Source of the DNA: a virus
DNA: 21,889 nucleotides
Virus record (IMG/VR): IMGVR_UViG_3300000115_000234
Span: 1-21,889 of that record
Strand: one strand, 5' to 3'
Below the pieces are notes generated by a model. That model was not told where the DNA came from and ran no database searches. It saw only the letters and a list, made by a program, of their open reading frames with translations. The translations under genes were made by a program, and so were the position numbers. Below, in pieces: positions 1 through 21,659 of this stretch (the first letter of the stretch is position 1; each line of letters opens with the position of its first letter).

Positions 1-3000
1 ATTATAGATGGGTCAACACCATCAAGATTTTTTGAAAAAGTAGGAATATCATCTGGAGGCAATGCACCTTCATCTTCTATAAACTCTTTAGCAGCTTCTA
101 AGGCTTTGTCTGAGGCATTTAAATTGTAAACAGGTATTCCGCCTCTAGCTGTATTATTAACTGTTTCTATGACTTCTTCTAAAGCTTTATTTGGAGTTGT
201 AGGATTTAATTTATTAGCAATATCATTCATATATTTAGTAACAATATTTGCAAGTTCTTCTTTTGTAGAAGCTAAACCTCTTGTTTCATTACCTATTGGT
301 TTCATAGTCAATCCTTTACCTTCCATAACAGATTTAACTTGTTCTGGAGGTAATGGGTCTCCTATATCAGTCATCTCAGGACCATAAAATCTTTGTGGAA
401 CTTCACCAGTTCTATCTATTGCTCTACCAAAATATGGATTAATTTCTGTTTGTGTAAGTTCTTCTAATGTAGCACTACCTAATATGTTATTAACATTTTT
501 AAAAAAATCTAAATTATTATCTGAATTTAAATATAAAGATTGTGCTATATCATCACCAAGTAATCCTTTTGTTTCTCTACCAAAACCTGGTCTTAAAGAA
601 CCTAATCCAAAAACATTTGGATTGGGTTGCCAATTTAAAGCACCAATATCTCTATCAGTACCTTTTTTAACAGCTATTAAAGTTAAATCAGATAATTTTT
701 CTCTCCAATCTACGCTTCTATGATAAGCAATAGCATCTACTGGATTAGTAAATACTACTAATCCTGGAGTTTCTATTTCTGTATCTGGGTTGTAAAAAAA
801 TTGTGAATCATCAAAAGCAAAACCTTCTTTTAAAATTCTATTAGCATCTGCTTTTTTAGCTATATAATAATATTGTTCATTCCATTTTCTTTGACTATCT
901 CTTCTACCTCTACTAAATAATGGGACATCATTAATTAAACTAGCTTGTCTATCTTTAGTTGCAGGAGAGTATTGATATGTTGGTTTAATGCCACGAAGGT
1001 CAGCAAGAACTTCTGCTTCTCCCATATATTGTTCATATTGATACATAGCATCTTCTAATGCATCTTGGGACATAATTCCTGAACCAGCATATGAATCTTC
1101 AAGCATATTAATATAATCTGATTCCATAGCTTTTAATAACATAGGCACATAACCTTTTACCTTACTCATAGGAACTTCATATCTAAGTATTTCAGGATTC
1201 CATTTTGCACCTTGTCTTTGTGCTTTATTAAATAAATTACGACTTATTTCTAATGCTTCTCTACTATCTAATGTTGTACTTGCAAATATATCTTCTGGAA
1301 GTTGTCCATAGTTTTTAATCTTTTCACCTTCAGGAATATTTAAAGCTCTAAATAAAACTAAATTACCTTTTTTGTTTGTAAACTTTTCTAAGAATTTTTT
1401 ACTAGCTCTTAATAAAGGTCTGTTTTGTCTACCTTTAAATGCTTCAACTATAGCCATTTTAAGTGGTGCAGGATTATCTCTATTACCACCTCGTTCTCTA
1501 CTCATTTCTAATTGGTCTATTATTGCACCAGTTTCAAAACGATTTTTTCTTACCCAATCAAAAGGAACTTCATTATTTTTAGGTATTAAATTAGTTCTAC
1601 TAAATGTAGGTATATCTCCAGCTCTTAACTCAGCTATTTGATTTCTTTGTTTTTCTATTTCTTTTTCTAATCTTTTAGCAGTAGAATCTGCCATTCTTTC
1701 GCTATTTAATTGTGCTTGTTTGTATTCTATACTTGCTTCTAAATTAGATATTGTTCTTTGTCTTTTTTGTGCATCAAAATAAGCCTTGTTAGTTTGTTCT
1801 GTTAAAGCATCTTGTTCACCTTCAGTTCTAGGTATTCTACTAAAGGTAGGTGTATCTTCTACAGCTTTTATTCTTGGGAAATAACCCCATCGTGCCCAAC
1901 CATTATTACCATCCCAACGAACATCACCTGCTCTTAATTTAAAAGTATGTATTGTTGATGGAGTTGTTTGAGGTGCATCAAACATATCCATAATTCTATC
2001 CATTGCTTCAAAGTTTTTTTCTTGTTGTAAATTAACAACTCCTTCTGCTCTTCTTCTAGCTTTATCTGCTTCTCTTATTTCTTCTCTTGTAACTTTAGAA
2101 TCTTCTACAAGATATTGTGCATCACTTAAAAATGGAGTTATTAAATCTCCTTCTCTCAAATCTCTTGAAGGTGCAGCTTGATACATAGTTATTTCTGCAT
2201 TTGGATTATCTTTTATTTCTATAAGTTTATTTATAAACTCACGCTCTTCTTGTTGTTCTAGTGATGTTCTAGCTGTACTAAATACTCTTAAATTGTTGTA
2301 ATCTACATCAGTACCAAAAGTAGAATAACCTTCTGGACTAAATTCTTCACTAGGCATTTCATTTAAGTTATGTGCAGGTGGACCATATTGTGCAGGCATA
2401 TAATCAGCTACATGACCAGATGTTTCATCTCTAGGTCCTCTAGCAAATGTAGGTGTATCTAAATAGTCATTTTCTACTTCATCTAATACATTGCCATATC
2501 TTATTAAATCTTCTTTTTTATCTAAAAGTTTAGTTGTTCTTATTTTATCTCTAGTTCTTTTACCAATTCTACCAGCTTCAATCTCTTCAAATATTTGATT
2601 TGCATTGTCAAATCCAGATATACGCAATGATTCACCAAGTTCAGCAAAGAACTCAATAATTTTATTAAATATACCTTCTGCTTTTTCTGGTAAAGGAGAT
2701 TCAACTCTTCTATTTCTATACATTTCTGCAATAGCTTCTTCTGTATAAAACTCATTAATAAAAGCATCACTAAGTTGAATAGATTTTTTAGTAGTAGTTG
2801 GTCTTTGTTGTTCTATAATAGTAGATTCGTTAATTCTTTTAGCTCTATCAAAATAAGTTTCTTTTTTAGAAAAAGCTATTTCATCTACAGATTTTGGAAC
2901 TCTAACTTTTTTAACTTGTTTTCTTAAATAGTCATATTCTTTTTCATTAATTAAATCTTTTTCTCTAAGAGCATGAATTAACTCATGGTCTAATACTTCA

Positions 3001-5516
3001 TTTAATTTTCTTTGTATTTCAGCATCTGTAGCTTTGCCATCAGGATTAACAGCATTTAAAGATATAAATATAATATCTGTCTGTCTATCGTATTCTCCTT
3101 CTACTGCACCTTCTGTTTTAGTTTTTCTAGTTATTGTTGGGTCAAATACTATTTTATCTCCTTGTTCTTGTAATGTAGAACTAGATAGTATGTCATTACT
3201 AACAATAACACCTGTTTCTTTTAACCCTATCTTTGCTAGTCTTTGTTTTAACTCTTGTGCAAACTTATTTATTCTTCCTTTTTCTACAGCTTCAGCAAAA
3301 TCTATAGTTCTTTTTGCTTCTTCTACAGGAGGTAGTTGTTCAGATTCTGTAGTTCTTTGTTCTTGTTCTAATTGTGCTATTGCTTCTGGAGATAATTTAC
3401 CTTCAGTAACAAGCCTATTAACAAATTCTTCTGTAGTTTCATTAAAAGCTTCTGCTCTTCTATCTATTTTTTGTTGAAAATTATCTGCAATTTTATATTG
3501 ATTACCTTTAACTTTTTCTGCTCTACCGCTATAAACTAAATCTTCAAAAAATTGTGGGTCTTTTATACCCATCATTTTAAGACTTTGTTTATTAAATAAA
3601 ACATTATCTTTTTTAAGATTAACAACTGTTTCTGATAAATCTTTAGCAGAATATATTCTAGGCTGTAAATTTGGAAAATCTACTTTAGTATTAAATCTTG
3701 GTATTGATTGTATTCTTGCAAGTAATAGTTCTTTTTGAGGCTTAGTCATACTCTTAAAAGAAGATGTACCAGTCCATCGTTTTGCTGCATATTGAAATGC
3801 AGGACTATTTATATCTATATTAATATTTTTTGCATTACCTAATTCTTTTAATCTTTTTATAGTTACATTAGTTTTATTATTATTTTGTATTACAGGTGCA
3901 ATATTTTTAGCATTAGAAAGTTTTGTAACTTGTTGTGCCATATCAGTTGTAAAGTTTTGAAAATCTTTTGCAGATAAAAGTTGTTTAACTTCTGAAAGTG
4001 TATAACTTTCTTTTAATGGTAGTTTTTTATACTTTTTATTTTTGCCTAACAATACATTTTGCATTGCTTGTACATTTTTTAAAGATGTATCATATGGCAC
4101 AATCTCTTTAAGACTAGCAGTAGTAGTATCTGTGTCCATAACTGTTTGTGCTAGTTCATAAGCAGATTTACTTTTATTTAATCCTAATATATATAAATCA
4201 TTATCTAATATTTGTTTTTGTTGATTTACTTCAAACTCTTGTAACAGTTTTTCTTTTTTATTTATAGCATCAACTTCTTTATTAAAAGTATTAATTTCTC
4301 CTAGATTATTATCTATGAGACTAAATGTATTATTTTGATTTTTTCTTATTTGTAATTGAGGAGGTGTAGAGATTTCTACAGGGTTGGGAACATTATCTAA
4401 TAATGGAAGAAGTAATGTTTCTTGAACATTAATATCTTGTGTTGGGTCAGCTATATCTATAACACCTTGTTGTTGTGCTATATCAAACTTTTTAGTTCTT
4501 AATAAATCTTGTTTTTTCTTTTCTGCTCGTTTTTCTTGTTCTGCTCTATATTCTGATGCTATACCTCTTCTACCACCATAGCCTTGTATGACAGTATTTA
4601 ATAAACCACCAGCAAAACCACCTACAGTAAAGTCATCAAATAGACTTTCTCCTATAGGAAGTTCATCGCTATAAAAACCTCTAGCATTAAAATCTTGTAA
4701 TAGTCCTGCTGTACTTTCTTGAAGTCCTTCTTGCACAGCACCTGCTGTAAAGTTTTTAGCATGAGCAAATATTTTTTGAGATGTTGTTGCATCTCTTAAT
4801 GCACTTTTAGGTATGCTTCTAAAAAAATTAAATATAGGTAATGCTTCTGATGCACCAATAACACCTGCTGTTAATGTGCTTAAATTTTCAGCAAAGAATC
4901 CTGGTTTTTCTTCTCCATATACTTCTTCTGCTATATCCATCATGTCTGCATTTTGAGACATATAAACAGATGAACCTAAACCTGCTGGATATAAAAATGG
5001 TTTTGATTTTAAAAATTTTGCATTAAAGTTTAAAGGATTTACTTTACCAAAACCTTTTGTACCAGGTTTAAATACTGGCATATATTTAGTGCTTTTACCT
5101 CTTGATAAAACACCTAATCCAACAAAAGGTAGTAATGAGCCTACTGCTTGACCAGCTTTAGTGCTAAAAGCATCTGCATATCTAGGGTCTCTATATCCTG
5201 CAATATTTTGTGCTACTCTTTCTTCTGTAGCTTTCATTTTATCTGCAAGTCTAACTAATGGACCTTCACCTAATGAATCTTGTGCTAATGCTTCAATAGG
5301 ACCTCTTAATCCCATAAGAGTAGTTTGTGCTATACCTCTAGGAATACTTTTAAATGCTTCTGCAGTTTGTCCTAAAAATGTACCTTCTGTATATTCTTTT
5401 GCTACATCAGGACCATATCCAGGTATTTGTGATAGTGCATAACCAACTTCTGCTCTAAGATTAGGGTCATCAGGAATGTATATTTCTCTTCCATCTGGTA
5501 AAGTAAAAGTTTTCAT
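1..5516 (-). CDS. Giant polyvalent virion protein (metallopeptidase + ADP-ribosyltransferase), C-terminus outside window
   Basis: One open frame runs from an ATG at 5516 to the window edge, giving at least 1,838 residues with no stop, so the C-terminus is missing. The N-terminal part has three hydrophobic Gly/Ala-rich stretches (about residues 122-140, 207-228 and 293-314) that could touch a membrane. A zincin motif HELIH lies at 844-848, with candidate third-ligand glutamates E926/E927. A coiled coil spans about 1240-1295. An R-S-E type ADP-ribosyltransferase is visible: R1390 in LFRAL, S1413-T-T, and E1500-A-E1502. A second, degenerate ART-like segment lies at about 1110-1215, and an unassigned domain at about 1540-1640. 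Phage polyvalent proteins with this composition are thought to be packaged in the virion and injected with DNA. It follows the transglycosylase gene after 2 bases, as T7 gp16 follows gp15. Domain calls rest on motifs read by eye; the injected role is inferred. Confidence 0.85.
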   Translation of the reverse strand, partial: MKTFTLPDGREIYIPDDPNLRAEVGYALSQIPGYGPDVAKEYTEGTFLGQTAEAFKSIPRGIAQTTLMGLRGPIEALAQDSLGEGPLVRLADKMKATEERVAQNIAGYRDPRYADAFSTKAGQAVGSLLPFVGLGVLSRGKSTKYMPVFKPGTKGFGKVNPLNFNAKFLKSKPFLYPAGLGSSVYMSQNADMMDIAEEVYGEEKPGFFAENLSTLTAGVIGASEALPIFNFFRSIPKSALRDATTSQKIFAHAKNFTAGAVQEGLQESTAGLLQDFNARGFYSDELPIGESLFDDFTVGGFAGGLLNTVIQGYGGRRGIASEYRAEQEKRAEKKKQDLLRTKKFDIAQQQGVIDIADPTQDINVQETLLLPLLDNVPNPVEISTPPQLQIRKNQNNTFSLIDNNLGEINTFNKEVDAINKKEKLLQEFEVNQQKQILDNDLYILGLNKSKSAYELAQTVMDTDTTTASLKEIVPYDTSLKNVQAMQNVLLGKNKKYKKLPLKESYTLSEVKQLLSAKDFQNFTTDMAQQVTKLSNAKNIAPVIQNNNKTNVTIKRLKELGNAKNINIDINSPAFQYAAKRWTGTSSFKSMTKPQKELLLARIQSIPRFNTKVDFPNLQPRIYSAKDLSETVVNLKKDNVLFNKQSLKMMGIKDPQFFEDLVYSGRAEKVKGNQYKIADNFQQKIDRRAEAFNETTEEFVNRLVTEGKLSPEAIAQLEQEQRTTESEQLPPVEEAKRTIDFAEAVEKGRINKFAQELKQRLAKIGLKETGVIVSNDILSSSTLQEQGDKIVFDPTITRKTKTEGAVEGEYDRQTDIIFISLNAVNPDGKATDAEIQRKLNEVLDHELIHALREKDLINEKEYDYLRKQVKKVRVPKSVDEIAFSKKETYFDRAKRINESTIIEQQRPTTTKKSIQLSDAFINEFYTEEAIAEMYRNRRVESPLPEKAEGIFNKIIEFFAELGESLRISGFDNANQIFEEIEAGRIGKRTRDKIRTTKLLDKKEDLIRYGNVLDEVENDYLDTPTFARGPRDETSGHVADYMPAQYGPPAHNLNEMPSEEFSPEGYSTFGTDVDYNNLRVFSTARTSLEQQEEREFINKLIEIKDNPNAEITMYQAAPSRDLREGDLITPFLSDAQYLVEDSKVTREEIREADKARRRAEGVVNLQQEKNFEAMDRIMDMFDAPQTTPSTIHTFKLRAGDVRWDGNNGWARWGYFPRIKAVEDTPTFSRIPRTEGEQDALTEQTNKAYFDAQKRQRTISNLEASIEYKQAQLNSERMADSTAKRLEKEIEKQRNQIAELRAGDIPTFSRTNLIPKNNEVPFDWVRKNRFETGAIIDQLEMSRERGGNRDNPAPLKMAIVEAFKGRQNRPLLRASKKFLEKFTNKKGNLVLFRALNIPEGEKIKNYGQLPEDIFASTTLDSREALEISRNLFNKAQRQGAKWNPEILRYEVPMSKVKGYVPMLLKAMESDYINMLEDSYAGSGIMSQDALEDAMYQYEQYMGEAEVLADLRGIKPTYQYSPATKDRQASLINDVPLFSRGRRDSQRKWNEQYYYIAKKADANRILKEGFAFDDSQFFYNPDTEIETPGLVVFTNPVDAIAYHRSVDWREKLSDLTLIAVKKGTDRDIGALNWQPNPNVFGLGSLRPGFGRETKGLLGDDIAQSLYLNSDNNLDFFKNVNNILGSATLEELTQTEINPYFGRAIDRTGEVPQRFYGPEMTDIGDPLPPEQVKSVMEGKGLTMKPIGNETRGLASTKEELANIVTKYMNDIANKLNPTTPNKALEEVIETVNNTARGGIPVYNLNASDKALEAAKEFIEDEGALPPDDIPTFSKNLDGVDPSI
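30..2459 (-). repeat. Five copies of a (D)xPxF(S/A)(R/K) interdomain motif in the giant protein
   Basis: The pattern occurs at D1020 (DTPTFARG), D1221 (DTPTFSRI), D1301 (DIPTFSRT), D1530 (DVPLFSRG) and D1823 (DIPTFSKN). In DNA these begin near 2459, 1856, 1616, 929 and 50. The intervals are 201, 80, 229 and 293 residues. Each copy sits between segments that look like separate domains (zincin, degenerate ART, coiled coil, intact ART, unknown), so it probably marks linkers or processing sites. The spacing is irregular, so this is a dispersed protein motif and not a tandem DNA repeat. Confidence 0.8.
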
Positions 5517-5518
5517 GT

Positions 5519-7483
5519 TTAAGTTAATCTTCTATTTACAGCATCTTGTCCATACGCTTTTATTACATATTGATAAGCAGATTCACCTATTGGTCTGCCA
5601 TCTTTACTTGTAATTGATTTAAGTGTGTTTATGTCTCCTCCTGATTTTAACCATGTATCAACATTACCAGGTCCTAAATTATAAGCTAAAGTGCCAAGAA
5701 AAACATCGCCATTATATTTATCTACCATTGCATAAAAATAATCTTCGCCAACTCTAATTTTTTCTTCAACAGAATTATTTTTAGCAGGTTCAATACCATA
5801 ACCAGGGTCTATAAGAGTACTAGGTAAAACTTGCATTGGACCTGTGGCTCCTGTAGTGTCATTTACAACATCTCTACCACTACTTTCTATTCTAATTATA
5901 TTATCTATAAGAGGGTCGTCAGTAAGAAATTCAGTACTAGCATAACCTTCATCATTTGGATTTGGCGTTAGTTCATCTTTTCTCATCTTTTTTTTTAAAT
6001 ATTCTATACCTTTAATTCCAAAATTTACTTCAGGATTTGTTTTCAAAAAAGTATCTTTTAATCTATTTATAAGACCTTTTGATTCTGTATCTGGTGGTGG
6101 AGTTTTAGTAACTTTATTAATCAATGCTCCATAATCAGTACCTTCAGCACCACTAAGTCCTTGTAATTGAGCTACAATATTAGATAATGCAAGTTCTGTG
6201 TTTCTATATTGTGGTGTATCTTGTTGACCTGCATCGACTAATCTTTGTAATTCTTCAGTAAAAATATTGTATTTATCTTGTAAAGCTTCTAATCCTTTAG
6301 CAGTTAATATTTTTTCTTTATATTTTCTTTCTTGTATATCACCAGCTAATGCAGTAATGCCTTGACCAAGCTCACTTGTATTTCTAGCACCCATAATAAT
6401 ACCACCTAGTTTAGCTAAGTCTAATGGGTCTATGCTTCTTTTAATTTCTTTAGTTGTTGTTTCTTTATCATCATCAACATCTAAATTAACTTTTTCTTCT
6501 GGGTCTTTTACAGCATAATATAATGCTGATAGCCCTGAAGCTCCTAAAGTACCAATTCCTGCATATTTTAAAAATTTAGTTAATCTTGGATGTCTACTTA
6601 AAAAATTACCACCAATTAATGCTAACTCTTGACCTTTAGGCACTCCTTGATAAGGAACTAAATTTGTACCTTTAACTCCTGGACCACCTAATGCTAAAGG
6701 AGTTGGAGCAGCTCTTGCAGCTCTTATAGCTTGTATTCCTTTAATACCACCTCTTAAAGCTACACCACCTATAGGAATATAGTTTAAATAATCTAATGGT
6801 TCATCTGTTGCTCTAGCAAGATTAGGTCTTTCAGCATCTGGTCTTGGGTCTCCAAAAAAGAATTGTGTACCACCTTCTATGAATTTATCAAAACCACTAG
6901 GTTCTTTTGCTGCATCTATTTGAGCTTGTAATCCTGCTGGTAATTGTGATGGATTTAATAAATCTTCAGGAGAAGTAGGTGAAAGTTGTGTTAAATCAGG
7001 TGTCATTCCTAATAAAAAATCTTTTCTTCTTTTATCATTTGATAAATTAATTTGTCTTATAATTTCTTCATCAGATAAATTTGCAATATCAATACCTAAA
7101 GTATTAGCTTCTGCAACTTGTTGTCTTGTTAAACCGCCAGATTGATAACCTGTTTTACCACCACTAGCCATCATTTGCATAGGAGAGGGCGGAGCCATGT
7201 TACCCATTTCACCTGATTGGAAAGCATTTGGTATATCAGATGATTGAGCCATAGCTCCTAAACCTGTATTGTTATTAGCAAAATCTGCTACTAACTCTTC
7301 AGAAACTGTAGTATTAGGTTTTGGTTGTTGAGCAGCATACATTTTTTCCATTTGTGTACGTCTTTGTATTTCACTTAATACTAAATAAGATGGATAATTA
7401 GCATTAGGGTCTTGCGACATTTGTATAAGCTGTTGCTTAGGAACAAACTCTAATTCTTGTGCTGCTTGTATTAAATTTGCCAT
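5519..7483 (-). CDS. Internal virion protein with C-terminal lytic transglycosylase domain
   Basis: This 654-residue protein ends in a soluble-lytic-transglycosylase (SLT, lysozyme-like) domain at about residues 525-645. The catalytic glutamate is E533 in IESSG, followed by GPMQVLP and AYNLGPGN, the usual three SLT blocks. Such a domain cuts the glycan strands of peptidoglycan, and in virions it opens the wall locally for DNA entry. The N-terminal half is Gln/Pro/Gly-rich, and near residues 103-121 it has the motif ASGGKTGYQSGGL also found in neighbouring virion proteins. A hydrophobic Gly/Ala stretch lies near residue 310. The ATG at 7483 follows an AGAGGA ribosome site and overlaps the upstream stop by one base. 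The place just before the giant protein matches the ejection-protein order of T7-like phages. The enzyme call is solid; placement inside the virion is inferred. Confidence 0.88.
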   Translation of the reverse strand: MANLIQAAQELEFVPKQQLIQMSQDPNANYPSYLVLSEIQRRTQMEKMYAAQQPKPNTTVSEELVADFANNNTGLGAMAQSSDIPNAFQSGEMGNMAPPSPMQMMASGGKTGYQSGGLTRQQVAEANTLGIDIANLSDEEIIRQINLSNDKRRKDFLLGMTPDLTQLSPTSPEDLLNPSQLPAGLQAQIDAAKEPSGFDKFIEGGTQFFFGDPRPDAERPNLARATDEPLDYLNYIPIGGVALRGGIKGIQAIRAARAAPTPLALGGPGVKGTNLVPYQGVPKGQELALIGGNFLSRHPRLTKFLKYAGIGTLGASGLSALYYAVKDPEEKVNLDVDDDKETTTKEIKRSIDPLDLAKLGGIIMGARNTSELGQGITALAGDIQERKYKEKILTAKGLEALQDKYNIFTEELQRLVDAGQQDTPQYRNTELALSNIVAQLQGLSGAEGTDYGALINKVTKTPPPDTESKGLINRLKDTFLKTNPEVNFGIKGIEYLKKKMRKDELTPNPNDEGYASTEFLTDDPLIDNIIRIESSGRDVVNDTTGATGPMQVLPSTLIDPGYGIEPAKNNSVEEKIRVGEDYFYAMVDKYNGDVFLGTLAYNLGPGNVDTWLKSGGDINTLKSITSKDGRPIGESAYQYVIKAYGQDAVNRRLT

Positions 7484-16872: not shown

Positions 16873-18630
16873 TTAATTAATTATAGTATATATTTGTATG
16901 GGTTTTTCTTTACCTTTTACATATATACTTTTTAACTCTTTTAGTGTAATTTCAGAATTAAAGTTTTTTGCGTTAATAGTGTTATAACCTATAACAATAT
17001 CTTCTCCAACTTCTTTAGTAGAGCTTTCAAGTCTAGCAGCAAGGTTTACAGCATCACCTATAGCTGTGTAATCAAACCTTGTATCGCTACCCATATTGCC
17101 TATAACAGCATATCCAGTATTAACTCCTACTCCTATTTCTACATCAATATTAGCTTGTTTTATTTTATCTTGTATTTCTTTTGCACATAGAACTGCAGCA
17201 GTTTCATGGTTTGGTAAATCTATAGGTGCATTAAATATAGCCATCATTGCATCTCCTATGTATTTATCTACCATACCATCATATTCTTTTACTGCATTAG
17301 CTTGTATTGTAAGAGCTTTGTTCATTATTTTTGTTACTTCTTCTGGCTCTAGTTTTTCAGACATAGCAGTAAAACCTCTTACATCTGTAAATAAAAAAGT
17401 ACAATATCTACGCTCACCACCTAAAACTAAAGAATCTGGGTTATCTTGTAATTTTTTAACTTGTCTTGGGTCAAGATAATGTTCAAACTGTTTTTTAATT
17501 TGTTGTCTTAGTTTGTATTGTTGTCTAAATCTTAAATAAAAACCTATAGAAGCTGTAATAAATTGTGAAATTAATGTCCAACTAACATCTATAAGCACTC
17601 CACGCTGTATTAGATAATGCCCAAAAAATATTGTTAAAAAGAATAATATACTGGTAAATACTATTCCTTTGGTCATTCCAAAAATATTTACGCATAACCA
17701 AACTAAAGTTACTGTTATCACTAAAATTAATAATTCTGCTGCTAAATGCCAATCAGGAATATAAGGACTATCTTGTATTAAGATTGATTCTGCTAGTGCT
17801 GTTTGTATTTTATGTGGCTCTAATAGTCCTACAGGTGTTGCTATCTGCGGCATAACTCCATTTGCAGTAACTCCTACAAATACAAACTTACCTGCTACTT
17901 CCATTTCTTTTAAATTAGTTTGTGGTGTATCTACCCAACTAATCCATTTACGACCAAGGCTATCTGTTTTAATAGGTGGTATTCCTCTAATTGATATTTC
18001 TTCTATACCATTATCATTAGTTTTTATAATATAAGTTTTTACATCAAATAAAGATTTATATATTTGTGTACCAAAACTAGGAATCCAATCATCGTTAGGA
18101 GTTTTTACTAAAAGAGGTATTCTTCTTACAAGTTGGTCAACTTCGGTGGGAGCAATGGCTAGACCCTGTAATGTATTATTTTTTAGAGTGTTCAGGTTTT
18201 CCTTAACTCCCAAAGATACTATACCACCATTATCTTTACCTTTCACTACTGTTCCTGTAGGTTTAGGATAATTTCCTTTACCATCTTCAAACATAGCTAT
18301 AACTGATGGTGCATACCCAAGTGTTTCTGCAAACATTTCATCACCACCCATTCGGTCTGCTTGTGGAAAACTTATAACCCAACCTACTCCTACAGCACCT
18401 TCATTAAGTAAATCTATTTGTATTTGTGCAAGTCTTTGTCTTGGTAATGGATAACCACCTTCTCTTTCTACATCTTCTTCAGTTATGTTAAGTATTACAA
18501 AGTTACCAGATTCTTGTGGTGTTTGTATTAAAGAATCAAATACTTTTAGTTTTAGTATTTCTGTAGGCGTTGATTGATATATTAATGGTAATAAAAGTAT
18601 TATAAGTATTGGTAATATTAATTTTTTCAT
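16873..18630 (-). CDS. CHASE2 sensor adenylate cyclase (class III)
   Basis: This 585-residue membrane enzyme should make cAMP from ATP. An N-terminal membrane segment (about 4-20) leads into an extracytoplasmic CHASE2 sensor domain (about 25-290). Three membrane segments follow (about 296-317, 322-341 and 345-366), then a short linker with YLDPRQVKKL, then the class III cyclase domain (about 405-585). The two metal-binding aspartates are D416 (FTDVRGF) and D460 (KYIGD). The adenine-selecting pair is K456 and D520 (FDYTAIGD), and the transition-state residues are N529 and R533 (NLAARLE). All are intact, so the enzyme should be active and prefer ATP. It starts on the FecR stop (TAATG) without a clear ribosome site. 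Neighbouring FecR and CHASE2-cyclase genes are known from bacterial genomes. A phage copy is unusual; cAMP-driven control of host genes during infection is inference. Confidence 0.94.
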   Translation of the reverse strand: MKKLILPILIILLLPLIYQSTPTEILKLKVFDSLIQTPQESGNFVILNITEEDVEREGGYPLPRQRLAQIQIDLLNEGAVGVGWVISFPQADRMGGDEMFAETLGYAPSVIAMFEDGKGNYPKPTGTVVKGKDNGGIVSLGVKENLNTLKNNTLQGLAIAPTEVDQLVRRIPLLVKTPNDDWIPSFGTQIYKSLFDVKTYIIKTNDNGIEEISIRGIPPIKTDSLGRKWISWVDTPQTNLKEMEVAGKFVFVGVTANGVMPQIATPVGLLEPHKIQTALAESILIQDSPYIPDWHLAAELLILVITVTLVWLCVNIFGMTKGIVFTSILFFLTIFFGHYLIQRGVLIDVSWTLISQFITASIGFYLRFRQQYKLRQQIKKQFEHYLDPRQVKKLQDNPDSLVLGGERRYCTFLFTDVRGFTAMSEKLEPEEVTKIMNKALTIQANAVKEYDGMVDKYIGDAMMAIFNAPIDLPNHETAAVLCAKEIQDKIKQANIDVEIGVGVNTGYAVIGNMGSDTRFDYTAIGDAVNLAARLESSTKEVGEDIVIGYNTINAKNFNSEITLKELKSIYVKGKEKPIQIYTIIN

Positions 18631-19748
18631 TAATCACTTTGTGTTATTGTTATTGTTGAATCACTACCACCATTAACTTTTATTATATTTGAAATACCAT
18701 CTTGTATAAATATAATTGTATAAGCATTACTTCCATTTAAGTCTACTCTAACGCTTTCATTTACTTCTCTTCTAAGACTAACTAAGTTACCTGTTATTAA
18801 AGCTGTTATTTGTGTTTCAGCATCTTTACCTAAAGAAGTACCACTAATTTGAGTGCTTGTAGCTTGTGCTAATTGTTCTTCTTCATCTTCTATAGCTAAA
18901 GCATCAAGAACATTAAGTAAATCTTCTAAATAATTTACATCAAGATAGTTAATATCTAGTTCTGTAAACTCTAAATTATTTTCTTTTAAAAAATCTTCTG
19001 CTAAATAATCTATATCTAAATCGTTAAAATCTAATACGCTATCTGTTTGTGATGTTGTAGTTTCTTCTTCTATATTTACTTCTTCTTTAGGAGGGGTAAC
19101 AATTAACATATTGTCTATAACATCTAAAGTTAAATCTAATATAACTGGTTTAGATGGTGCTGATTCAAATACGCTTACTGTGGTAGCCTCATAAGGTTTA
19201 TTAAGTAAAACAGTTCCCATAGCAGTAACTACCTCTATTTCGCCACTAGAGAGCCCTAGAGCGTCTGGAAGTAATATTATAAGGCTACGCCCTAGTTCAT
19301 CAACTGTAGCTGTAAAATCAGTTCCTCTAATAGCTATATTTGCAGTAGGTGTTTTAAGAGTAATGTTTTGTTTATCTATTTTATTAAGACTGCCTGTAAT
19401 AAATCTAGCAGTACCTAAACCAAAAGTAAGAGCCATTTTTGTTTTAGATGGGTCAGGGTCGTAAATATATTCATCTATTAACAGTTGTGAATGTTCAGTT
19501 AGTTTTACTATAGAATCATCTAAAAAAGTAATAGCCATTCTTCCATCAGTTGTTATGGCTTCATCATTACTTTGTATGGCAAATTTTAAATTAGCATCGT
19601 AAGGTTTGTCTCTTACTATTTGTGCTGAACCATTTAGTTCAGATATATCTCCAATATCAGCAACTTGTGCTTGTACCTTGGTCGTTTTGAATGACACAAA
19701 CAGTAGAAGCAGCAGTGCCAGAAACGGATATAATTTTAAGCCAGTCAT
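18630..19748 (-). CDS. Secreted FecR-domain protein with curlin-like C-terminal repeat
   Basis: The 372 residues start with a Sec signal peptide (hydrophobic 8-18, cleavage near VQA|Q, about residue 28). A FecR domain follows at about 39-146, ending in the family's signature TPTANIAIRGTDF. An acidic region at about 236-291 repeats the pattern LDxxYL. The last 40 residues contain Q349-D-G-I-S-N-I-I356 and a TITITQ end, like a curlin repeat. Unlike the sigma-regulating FecR of iron uptake, this one has no cytoplasmic anti-sigma part and is exported; stand-alone FecR proteins often pair with CHASE2 proteins. Its signal-peptide region is nested in the 3' end of the curlin-like gene (92-base overlap) with no clear ribosome site. 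A role as periplasmic or surface ligand for the CHASE2 sensor, or as fibre nucleator, is inferred. Confidence 0.88.
   Translation of the reverse strand: MTGLKLYPFLALLLLLFVSFKTTKVQAQVADIGDISELNGSAQIVRDKPYDANLKFAIQSNDEAITTDGRMAITFLDDSIVKLTEHSQLLIDEYIYDPDPSKTKMALTFGLGTARFITGSLNKIDKQNITLKTPTANIAIRGTDFTATVDELGRSLIILLPDALGLSSGEIEVVTAMGTVLLNKPYEATTVSVFESAPSKPVILDLTLDVIDNMLIVTPPKEEVNIEEETTTSQTDSVLDFNDLDIDYLAEDFLKENNLEFTELDINYLDVNYLEDLLNVLDALAIEDEEEQLAQATSTQISGTSLGKDAETQITALITGNLVSLRREVNESVRVDLNGSNAYTIIFIQDGISNIIKVNGGSDSTITITQSD
18681..18704 (-). repeat. Curlin-type motif QDGISNII at the C-terminus of the FecR protein
   Basis: Residues 349-356 of the FecR protein repeat the octapeptide pattern of the curlin-like neighbour and are followed by a Thr/Ile strand ending in TQ. 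The motif lies outside the FecR domain and the acidic linker, as a separate C-terminal module. Confidence 0.75.
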
Positions 19749-20388
19749 TATCTTGGGTACTCAGTTGTTGAATATTAAAAGTTCTTGAACCGCCAGTATG
19801 GTCTAAATAAAAATATCCACCTGCTGAAGCATTAACACCTGTACCTGTATAAGTAACTGCATTATCAGAACCATCTATATCCATAAAGTTAGTAGCTCCA
19901 TCAATATTAATATTTGATGTAACTGTGTTATTAGAACCTTGTATAATCCAATCTAAATTTAAGTTTGCTGCTATTGCGGTAGTACCTTGATTTAAAGTAA
20001 ATGTATTACTACTACCTGTAACTGCTACATTTTGGTCAGAACCATCAGAACTATAAGTATTAGTTGGGTCTACTTGTATAGTAAAAGTATTACTGCCACC
20101 AGTAAAATTATATAAACCTGTAAAAGTATTAGCGTTTATATCACCTAAAAATTTATTAGTAGCACCAATCATATTGATATCTAAGGTCATAGTATTACCA
20201 TCTAAATCAAAAGCGGTTAAACTGCCTGCAGAGCTGTTTAAACCACCTATGATATTAGATATACCTAGTTGTTCTAGGTCTATATTTGCACCAGTACCAG
20301 ACTGGTCTACAAAAATTTCGTTATCAGCCGCGTATGTTGTCAATGCACTCAGCATCACAATCAGGCTCATCAATTTTAATTTCTTCAT
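19657..20388 (-). CDS. Curlin-repeat-like exported protein (candidate CsgG substrate)
   Basis: The protein has 243 residues from the ATG at 20388, chosen because it begins a clean signal peptide (MKKLKLMSLIVMLSALTTYA|A). An AGGAG lies about 11 bases upstream; the frame itself opens at 20418. The mature part begins with EIFVDQSGTGANIDLEQLG and ISNIIGG, which fits the curlin pattern of Q-x-G-x-x-N. It then repeats short Gly-Ser-Asn-Thr-aromatic strands (GGSNTFTIQ, GSSNTFTLNQ, GSNNTVTS, GSDNAVTY, GGSRTFNIQQ), suggesting a beta-solenoid or amyloid fold. Two cysteines near the end (VCVIQND and the terminal Cys) could form a disulphide. It lies directly after csgG and overlaps it by 65 bases, which is what a CsgA/CsgB-type substrate would do. 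Amyloid formation is inference. Confidence 0.7.
   Translation of the reverse strand: MKKLKLMSLIVMLSALTTYAADNEIFVDQSGTGANIDLEQLGISNIIGGLNSSAGSLTAFDLDGNTMTLDINMIGATNKFLGDINANTFTGLYNFTGGSNTFTIQVDPTNTYSSDGSDQNVAVTGSSNTFTLNQGTTAIAANLNLDWIIQGSNNTVTSNINIDGATNFMDIDGSDNAVTYTGTGVNASAGGYFYLDHTGGSRTFNIQQLSTQDNDWLKIISVSGTAASTVCVIQNDQGTSTSC
20248..20271 (-). repeat. Curlin-type motif QLGISNII in the curlin-like protein
   Basis: Residues 40-47 read QLGISNII, matching the Q-x-G-x-x-N core of curlin repeats. The same pattern, with one residue changed, closes the FecR protein at 18681-18704 (QDGISNII). The codons differ at most positions, so this is not a fresh DNA duplication. Confidence 0.75.
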
Positions 20389-21196
20389 ATTTCCAAAAAC
20401 TCCTGTCGTAACCGACACTAATTATTTCTAATACAGCACTTTCTATTGCTTTCATTAAAGCTATAGTTGTTGATTCATTTCTGGAATTACCCATTTCTAT
20501 TTCAACAAGTTCTGTTCCTGCTTCTATAAAACGAAATATATCTTCTGATTTACCATAACTAAATATAGTTTTTTCAGTCATTACTTCTATAAGAATTTCT
20601 CCTGTAGCTACTGATACCATGCGTAAAGTTATTGCTACACTATCTTCTCTATACTGTACGCTTTTACCAATACCTAAATACCTAGCACCTGCACCACCTG
20701 TAGCTAAATTTGTTTCATAAGATATTACAGCACCTTCCATTAATATTCCTGCAAACAATAAAGGTCTTAATGCTTTTTTCTTTTCTTCATCTGATAGAGT
20801 CTGTTCTCTAGCACTACGAATTAATTGTCTTTCTTTGGTAAGATTATCTAATCCTACTCGTTCAACTACTGTAAAAAAATTTCCATTACCTGCGTGTTTT
20901 AAAGCTCGTATAAGTAAAGCATTTGGTTGTTGAGTTATTGCTGTACTAAACAAAGCAAACTCACTATTACTTTTACGCTGTCCTGTTTGGTCTGTAAATG
21001 CTGCTGGATATACAGCTACTACAGGTTTTAATATTGGTTGTTTTACATCAGCAAGTTCTTTTGATTGTAATTCAGATATATTTACAATGTTATGTGCTTC
21101 AAATCTTTGTTCGTATGTATCTTCAAGTTGGTCAAATATAGAACAACTAGAACAAAAAAGTACCAATAGGTATCGTAATTTCAGTAATTGTTCCAT
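20324..21196 (-). CDS. csgG: CsgG-like outer-membrane curli secretion channel
   Basis: The protein has 290 residues against 277 in E. coli. CsgG is a lipoprotein that forms a nonameric outer-membrane pore through which curlin subunits leave. The signal ends in a cysteine-rich lipobox (C15, C18). Family blocks are clear: VVAVYPAAFTDQTGQ (60-73), FSTAITQQPNALLIRALK (83-100), VVERVGLDNLTKERQLIRSA, ILMEGAVISYETN, GGAGARYLGIG, VATGEIL and a final SAVLEI..GYDRSFW. The constriction loop (about 74-83) keeps the phenylalanine (F83, E. coli F56) but lacks Tyr and Asn at the other pore-lining places, by my hand alignment. It overlaps csgF by 50 bases and has only a weak CGGAAC site, so coupling is likely. 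CsgE, CsgC and CsgD are not in the window. Confidence 0.95.
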   Translation of the reverse strand: MEQLLKLRYLLVLFCSSCSIFDQLEDTYEQRFEAHNIVNISELQSKELADVKQPILKPVVAVYPAAFTDQTGQRKSNSEFALFSTAITQQPNALLIRALKHAGNGNFFTVVERVGLDNLTKERQLIRSAREQTLSDEEKKKALRPLLFAGILMEGAVISYETNLATGGAGARYLGIGKSVQYREDSVAITLRMVSVATGEILIEVMTEKTIFSYGKSEDIFRFIEAGTELVEIEMGNSRNESTTIALMKAIESAVLEIISVGYDRSFWKYEEIKIDEPDCDAECIDNIRG

Positions 21197-21659
21197 CTTG
21201 TTCCGTTATTTTAAGTGTTAATGTTACGCCATCGCTTGTATATTCTATGGTGTTGCCTTCTAAAGTTATTGTTCCTGAGTTAGATGGTGTTTCACCAAAA
21301 AGATTATTAACTAACTGTCTTGATAGTTCTGCATATACTCTTGATTCTAAGTTACGCAAAAATCTAGCAAGTGTAGAATTTTCTTTTTCTCTTTCTATTT
21401 CTTCTTGTAAAGCTTTTATTTCTTCTTTAATAGTTAATTTACGACTAAACTCTTGATTTTCTATAGTTAAATAATGTGAGCTAGTACCAACACCATTAAA
21501 ACTAGGAGACTTAAATTTAAAAGTTATTGTGTCTGCTTTTATATTTATAGCAATAATACCTATAAACATAATTAAACCAATAAACATAATCCCTCTTATG
21601 ATTCTAGTTTTTTCTATTTCTTCTTGCACTTTTTGTTTTTGTGTCATTTTCTTTTTCAT
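21147..21659 (-). CDS. csgF: CsgF-like curli assembly factor
   Basis: The protein has 170 residues. CsgF binds the CsgG pore at the cell surface and helps place and nucleate the fibre. The mature N-terminus TITFKFKSPSFNG matches the E. coli CsgF peptide that plugs into CsgG (TMTFQFRNPNFGG). The second half, from ELSRQLVNNLFG through YTSDGVTLTLKITEQDG, follows the rest of the family. Between them lies a Glu/Lys-rich helical insert (about 75-110) absent from E. coli CsgF. The start at 21659 has a TTGGAG site and gives a long basic n-region (about 23 residues) before the hydrophobic core. An alternative ATG at 21587 has AGAGGG just upstream but would leave a signal without positive charges. It overlaps the holin-like gene by 56 bases. 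Confidence 0.92.
   Translation of the reverse strand: MKKKMTQKQKVQEEIEKTRIIRGIMFIGLIMFIGIIAINIKADTITFKFKSPSFNGVGTSSHYLTIENQEFSRKLTIKEEIKALQEEIEREKENSTLARFLRNLESRVYAELSRQLVNNLFGETPSNSGTITLEGNTIEYTSDGVTLTLKITEQDGTITEITIPIGTFLF

Follow-up and report, generated by a model that had tools for sequence, protein, structure and literature searches.

A seam motif of exchangeable cassettes in a giant polyvalent-type phage protein, a likely processing site of its built-in metallopeptidase

In a giant polyvalent-type protein encoded by an IMG/VR virus record, a short motif recurs at the borders between modules. We consider it likely (probability about 0.67) that the protein is processed at this motif by a metallopeptidase domain of its own, MPTase-1, and that the motif is a recombination seam as well; cleavage itself is inferred, as there are no cleavage data. 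What is shown below is that the motif exists, that it stands at the borders of modules, that it is constrained at the level of amino acids and that it disappears along with the HExxH residues. The DNA examined, here called the window, comprises 21,889 bases, and the features of the giant protein are listed in Table 1.

Table 1. Parts of the giant protein located in the window
Feature	Position	Strand	Remarks
Giant polyvalent-type protein	3..5516	-	at least 1838 aa; C-terminus beyond window end
MPTase-1, putative zinc metallopeptidase domain	2475..3314	-	aa 735-1014; domain HMM, weak Pfam
HELIH, predicted zinc ligands and general base	2973..2987	-	aa 844-848
TEEAIAE region, predicted third zinc ligand inside	2727..2747	-	aa 924-930; altered in all dead relatives
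Motif A, DTPTFAR	2439..2459	-	aa 1020; pattern match; predicted disordered
Cassette 1, module family 3	1857..2438	-	ART-like by eye, no Pfam match
Motif B, DTPTFSR	1836..1856	-	aa 1221; pattern match; predicted disordered
Cassette 2, module family 5	1617..1835	-	predicted helical coil
Motif C, DIPTFSR	1596..1616	-	aa 1301; pattern match; predicted disordered
Cassette 3, module family 4	930..1595	-	ART-like by eye, no Pfam match
Motif D, DVPLFSR	909..929	-	aa 1530; pattern match; predicted disordered
Cassette 4, module family 9	237..908	-	ART-like by eye; absent from L005/L020
Fixed module, family 2	51..236	-	about 70 aa; in nearly all relatives the module before the last seam
Motif E, DIPTFSK	30..50	-	aa 1823; fixed last seam, precedes LPD38 region

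The protein meets two criteria for a polyvalent protein. The first, a large size with several unrelated domains, is satisfied by the 1838 or more residues of the window protein, by relatives of up to 3321 residues and by at least 13 module families. The second, a recognised polyvalent-associated domain, is met through LPD38 (PF18857), which is found in the full-length relatives with E values of 2e-32 to 2.5e-37; these relatives continue for about 1000 residues more, to the LPD38 end, and the window protein stops before that region. Searches of Pfam, PHROGs and NCBIfam with the window protein gave no significant match. That the giant is packaged in the virion and injected is a possibility inferred solely from gene order, since its gene stands beside virion genes. 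The neighbouring gene (5519-7483, minus strand), conserved at this place in close relatives, encodes a protein of 654 residues that carries an SLT transglycosylase domain (E 5e-12) at its C-terminus; it is a probable ejection partner of the giant.

The pattern D-x-P-x-F-[SA]-[RK] has exactly five matches in the giant, versus 0.0034 expected from residue shuffling, and the looser pattern P.F[SA][RK] occurred no more than twice per sequence across 5000 shuffles. We modelled residues 640-1838 with AlphaFold2, using 66 homologous pieces; the model is modest (mean pLDDT 63, with 38% of residues below 50). The motifs (381-387, 582-588, 662-668, 891-897 and 1184-1190 in model numbering) all lie within stretches of pLDDT below 50 flanked by ordered segments, the sole exception being the first residue of motif C, which sits one place before its low-pLDDT stretch. 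A sixth look-alike, DEIAFSK (2885-2865, minus strand), was rejected: the HExxH domain is ordered where it stands (pLDDT about 90), and close relatives have DKIAFDK and DAIAFNK at the same spot. A sequence-only reading had claimed that five copies of (D)xPxF(S/A)(R/K) stand between 30 and 2459, at the borders of otherwise different domains. Both claims held, as all five copies are present there on the minus strand, in low-pLDDT linkers at which the homology to relatives breaks. Motifs buried inside domains would have refuted its proposals, and the AlphaFold2 model has none of the five so placed. What that reading missed is the second aspect of the motif, namely that it marks the seams at which cassettes are exchanged by recombination.

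Scanning the proteins of viral contigs yielded about 100 loci. In about 70 related giants, all of uncultured marine phages, the motif stands at the seams between modules. A non-redundant set of 67 proteins contains 136 instances of P.[FY][SA][RK], with the consensus [DE]-[ILV]-P-[TLN]-[FY]-S-[RK]. Splitting 30 proteins at the motif (124 module junctions) gave a fixed N-terminal block carrying the HExxH domain, at least 13 exchangeable module families and a fixed C-terminal block, which consists of a module of about 70 residues followed by LPD38. The order of the modules varies widely, being N-3-5-4-9 in the window protein, N-5-7-4-9-C in L032, N-3-6-14-11-2-C in L018 and N-10-8-5-7-C in L078. 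Pairs of proteins with a common left module and different right modules show an identity of about 40% before the motif and of nearly 100% at its fixed positions, and they fall to background identity about 5 residues past it. The motif is a border mark, and homology ends precisely there. A recent loss of a cassette near a seam is seen in L020, which derives from the same contig as L005: cassette 4 is gone at junction D, and the deletion ends 4 codons past the motif, the sequence reading DVPLFSRGRRD and then NKTPNKALEE.

The strict motif was absent from 116,862 residues of other open reading frames of these phages. The search of other polyvalent proteins that the sequence-only reading had proposed as a check showed that the motif recurs in the relatives, and it was rejected as a general trait of LPD38 proteins, as 11 distant LPD38 giants, mostly from cultured phages, are not enriched in [FY][SA][RK]. 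PLxRFG (NCBIfam tail-700) was also set aside, being a C-terminal domain of about 680 residues that is different from the motif. The modules are independent units: a GNAT-like one is found as a free-standing gene of 107 residues in Vibrio phage D279. This module (residues 1322-1434 of L051; also L111-L118) is common to DarB-like and PLxRFG giants, whose phages infect Klebsiella, Serratia, Pseudomonas, Vibrio and Ruegeria. No motif was found around the GNAT-like cassette in these other phages, indicating that the motif code belongs to the present lineage.

These observations could be explained if the motif were a recombination seam only, i.e. a short shared sequence that permits the in-frame exchange of cassettes and has no role in the finished protein. 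In favour of this view, homology ends exactly at the motif, and between unrelated seams DNA identity is restricted to its 21 nucleotides. Furthermore, the exchanging seams have been homogenised to the codons CCT-NNN-TTT-AGT-AGA, far above their usage elsewhere in the same genes. Of 14 module families, 13 have AGT as their majority serine codon, versus 37% in the control (binomial with one vote per family, 2e-5), and CCT behaves likewise. This codon homogeneity is a sign of recombination or copying at the seam. Yet, at the last seam, where no exchange takes place, the amino acids are retained although the codons differ (TCN for serine in 20/20, and TAC or TTC for some of the aromatics), and the x position of the motif is free at all three nucleotides. 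The serine is encoded by both AGY and TCN, two sets that no single substitution connects; since the residue has been kept across them, selection acts on the protein sequence, on the serine side chain. A role as a seam alone also leaves the loss of the motif together with HExxH unexplained, and we regard it as unlikely.

Where MPTase-1 is intact, the last seam has the proline and the aromatic residue in 36/36 proteins each and the serine in 35/36, with variable neighbouring positions. L020 has FLK in place of FSK. Some last seams have A, V or L where the basic residue is expected, which is therefore not essential there.

MPTase-1 is the putative enzyme of the N-terminal block. An HMM of this HExxH domain matches almost every relative whose N-terminal sequence is long enough, and the zincin-like signature (HExxH plus a downstream glutamate ligand) is conserved in all but 7 of them. 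Among family members, sub-threshold Pfam matches were to SprT-like (15), M76 (8), BSP (7) and M91 (6). Foldseek found no significant match for MPTase-1 in the PDB, so that the zincin fold is not confirmed, and only two weak matches in BFVD, one of them to a protein annotated as large polyvalent. A second HExxH domain follows MPTase-1 in most relatives (at about residues 1100-1310; L032, L045, L085 and others) and is missing from the window protein.

The strongest pattern came from seven relatives (L042, L046, L047, L065, L054, L082 and L080) in which the MPTase-1 domain is still recognised (E 1e-91 to 1e-114) whereas the first histidine of HExxH is gone, the sequence reading DGNVIE, DGDLIK, DAQVIH, DGQIIH, DGQVIH or DKEVVS instead. 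The EExIAE ligand region is changed in all of these proteins, here called dead, and the motif is absent from 7/7. At the last seam, of which both flanks survive in the dead proteins, P-x-aromatic is present in 36/36 proteins with an intact MPTase-1 versus 0/7 dead ones, which have KMPVNE, KLPELKM, KLPELNM, IKLTELNM, DIPLPKN, GMPEVSE and DVSGFNE. Internal sites have decayed as well. PEQ[IV]PLFSRG of the sisters L036, L041 and L050 (PQQVPLFSRG in L041) corresponds to PEQTSFVFEQG, PEQRDLFSPF, PEQKDLFNAF and PEQKDLFIPF in L042, L046, L047 and L065, and a module border of L080 reads TGQLSLFERS where TGQLPLFSR is found otherwise. Close relatives with an intact peptidase carry the motif in 36/37 cases, the exception (L100) being truncated, with the near-site DIPLWSA. 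Because relatives with a dead peptidase have also lost the motif, the motif is most likely a cut site of the built-in peptidase.

Fisher's test gives 3e-8 for the co-loss, and it ignores the relatedness of the proteins. The N-terminal tree supports 2 independent losses and the C-terminal tree 3, with the motif gone every time; sign tests on independent pairs yield p values of 0.25 and 0.5, and significance is unreachable with so few events. The co-loss is a strong pattern, but it is no statistical proof, the phylogeny-corrected sample being small. Two further scans for relatives with a dead peptidase found none, only more intact ones that carry the motif. In more distant relatives with an intact HExxH (e.g. 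L057, L058, L079 and L081) the last-seam site is altered or missing; several divergent ones (L057-L059, L068, L071, L072, L074 and L087) have P-x-F-[HNKY]-[RMV] or similar there. Enzyme and site may possibly have changed specificity jointly in these proteins.

Another protease, of the phage prohead or of the host, might cut the motif while MPTase-1 has a different job. Virion proteases are indeed known to process ejected proteins, as for P1 Pro on DarA (PMC12810830) and SPN3US gp245, which cuts after AxE (PMC10052503). However, the motif shows nothing of an AxE-type signature and occurs in no other protein than the giant, and its loss goes with that of the MPTase-1 catalytic residues. The second HExxH domain fails to track the motif, being present in dead proteins without motif and missing from motif-rich ones (the window protein, L018-L020, L051, L049 and L092); as it is retained where MPTase-1 is dead, it has another role. 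This explanation is unlikely. The motif might also be a docking site, left uncut, at which MPTase-1 or a different partner binds so that modules are packed, tethered or guided for ejection. A strict P-x-aromatic-S in a disordered linker would suit a bound peptide too, and the co-loss demonstrates a dependence on MPTase-1 without demonstrating cutting. Against docking, which we also doubt, the dead proteins retain the domain and have mainly lost zinc ligands, and binding alone should not require the catalytic histidine and glutamate. Least likely of all are plain flexible linkers that aid unfolding through the tail: they would fit the predicted disorder, but not the strict conservation of proline, aromatic residue and serine or the co-loss with HExxH, and other giant LPD38 proteins lack such enrichment. 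Of the options offered by the sequence-only reading, cut sites for the giant's own HELIH peptidase are thus the best backed, through co-loss in 2-3 lineages, with cleavage, injection and timing inferred; cutting by a virion protease and flexible linkers are both disfavoured.

Under the preferred reading, i.e. processing by MPTase-1, the giant would be a polyprotein of the polyvalent type, built from effector cassettes that each end in [DE]-[ILV]-P-x-[FYW]-S-[RK] within a disordered linker. MPTase-1 of the N-terminal block would recognise the motif and cut the chain between cassettes, freeing single cassettes and the C-terminal LPD38 part. Whether this would occur in cis or in trans, and in the virion or after injection, belongs, like cleavage itself, to what is inferred. 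For HExxH enzymes, the scissile bond may directly precede the aromatic residue, which is no more than a guess here. Phages swap cassettes at the same seam, each incoming cassette bringing its own site; in a protein whose peptidase is no longer active, the sites would cease to be under selection and would decay. In a bolder version, which we hold to be as likely wrong as right, one 7-residue code would serve both as the MPTase-1 cleavage site and as the in-frame crossover point for effector cassettes. If so, any incoming cassette would automatically be released after delivery.

The functions of the modules are mostly unproven. The ART-like labels of the window cassettes rest on inspection by eye, without Pfam support, and are tentative. 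A cassette of one relative matches ART-PolyVal below the cutoff (E 1.8e-4), and one relative shows a weak GNAT match.

Elsewhere in the window (16873-21659, minus strand) stand curli-type secretion genes, with CsgG (E 4e-49), CsgF (E 1e-15), FecR and a CHASE2-adenylate/guanylate cyclase; among 15 related virus records, CsgG is present in 9 and the cyclase in 11. A curli-type module with a cyclase is already known from HTVC023P-type pelagiphages (PMC9599517), and the module may hint at a SAR11-like host. The INPHARED phage collection contains no match to MPTase-1, so that no cultured phage carrying it was found. One match in genome_contigs falls in a Ca. Pelagibacter MAG and could be a binned phage contig. 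Within the collections searched, the system is known here from uncultured viruses only.

Processing of polyvalent proteins into functional units by metallopeptidases (MPTases) was already proposed by Iyer et al. in 2017 (PMC5512222). New here are the site code and its co-loss with the enzyme, for which we found no earlier report; a search of the open-access literature retrieved no phage report of a PLFSR, PTFSR or PxFSR motif. A portable site code would render the processing idea directly testable and the borders of effectors readable from the sequence, and would explain how phages exchange injected effectors yet keep each of them releasable. The cassettes also make up a list of candidate injected effectors, most of them without annotation, of marine phages that are uncultured.

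The giant resembles the polyvalent proteins of Iyer et al. in being a very large multidomain phage protein, with LPD38 at the end in relatives and an HExxH domain in the middle. In contrast to those, it has a uniform short motif at its seams that moves along when cassettes are swapped and disappears when the catalytic residues do; the sections of that paper bearing on MPTase processing name no cleavage site. Antirestriction proteins that phage P1 ejects (the DarA/DdrB system) are also cut (PMC12810830, PMC5512222), but DarA is trimmed at its N-terminus by Pro, a prohead protease encoded apart from it, autoprocessing of DdrB is merely predicted, and there is no multi-site chain of cassettes. 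SPN3US gp245 likewise recognises a short linear code (AxE) in several head and ejected proteins (PMC10052503). It is, however, a separate protease with a glutamate-containing site, whereas here the site is P-x-aromatic-S-[RK], occurs only in the giant and goes with a built-in peptidase; having no glutamate at its end, [DE][ILV]Px[FYW]S[RK] does not qualify as an AxE-type prohead protease substrate. Finally, in polymorphic toxin systems, too, a fixed carrier bears cassettes that can be exchanged, and some of these systems release them by autoproteolysis (PMC5512222), but their variable part is C-terminal, whereas the giant described here holds several cassettes in mid-chain between fixed ends, each with its own seam.
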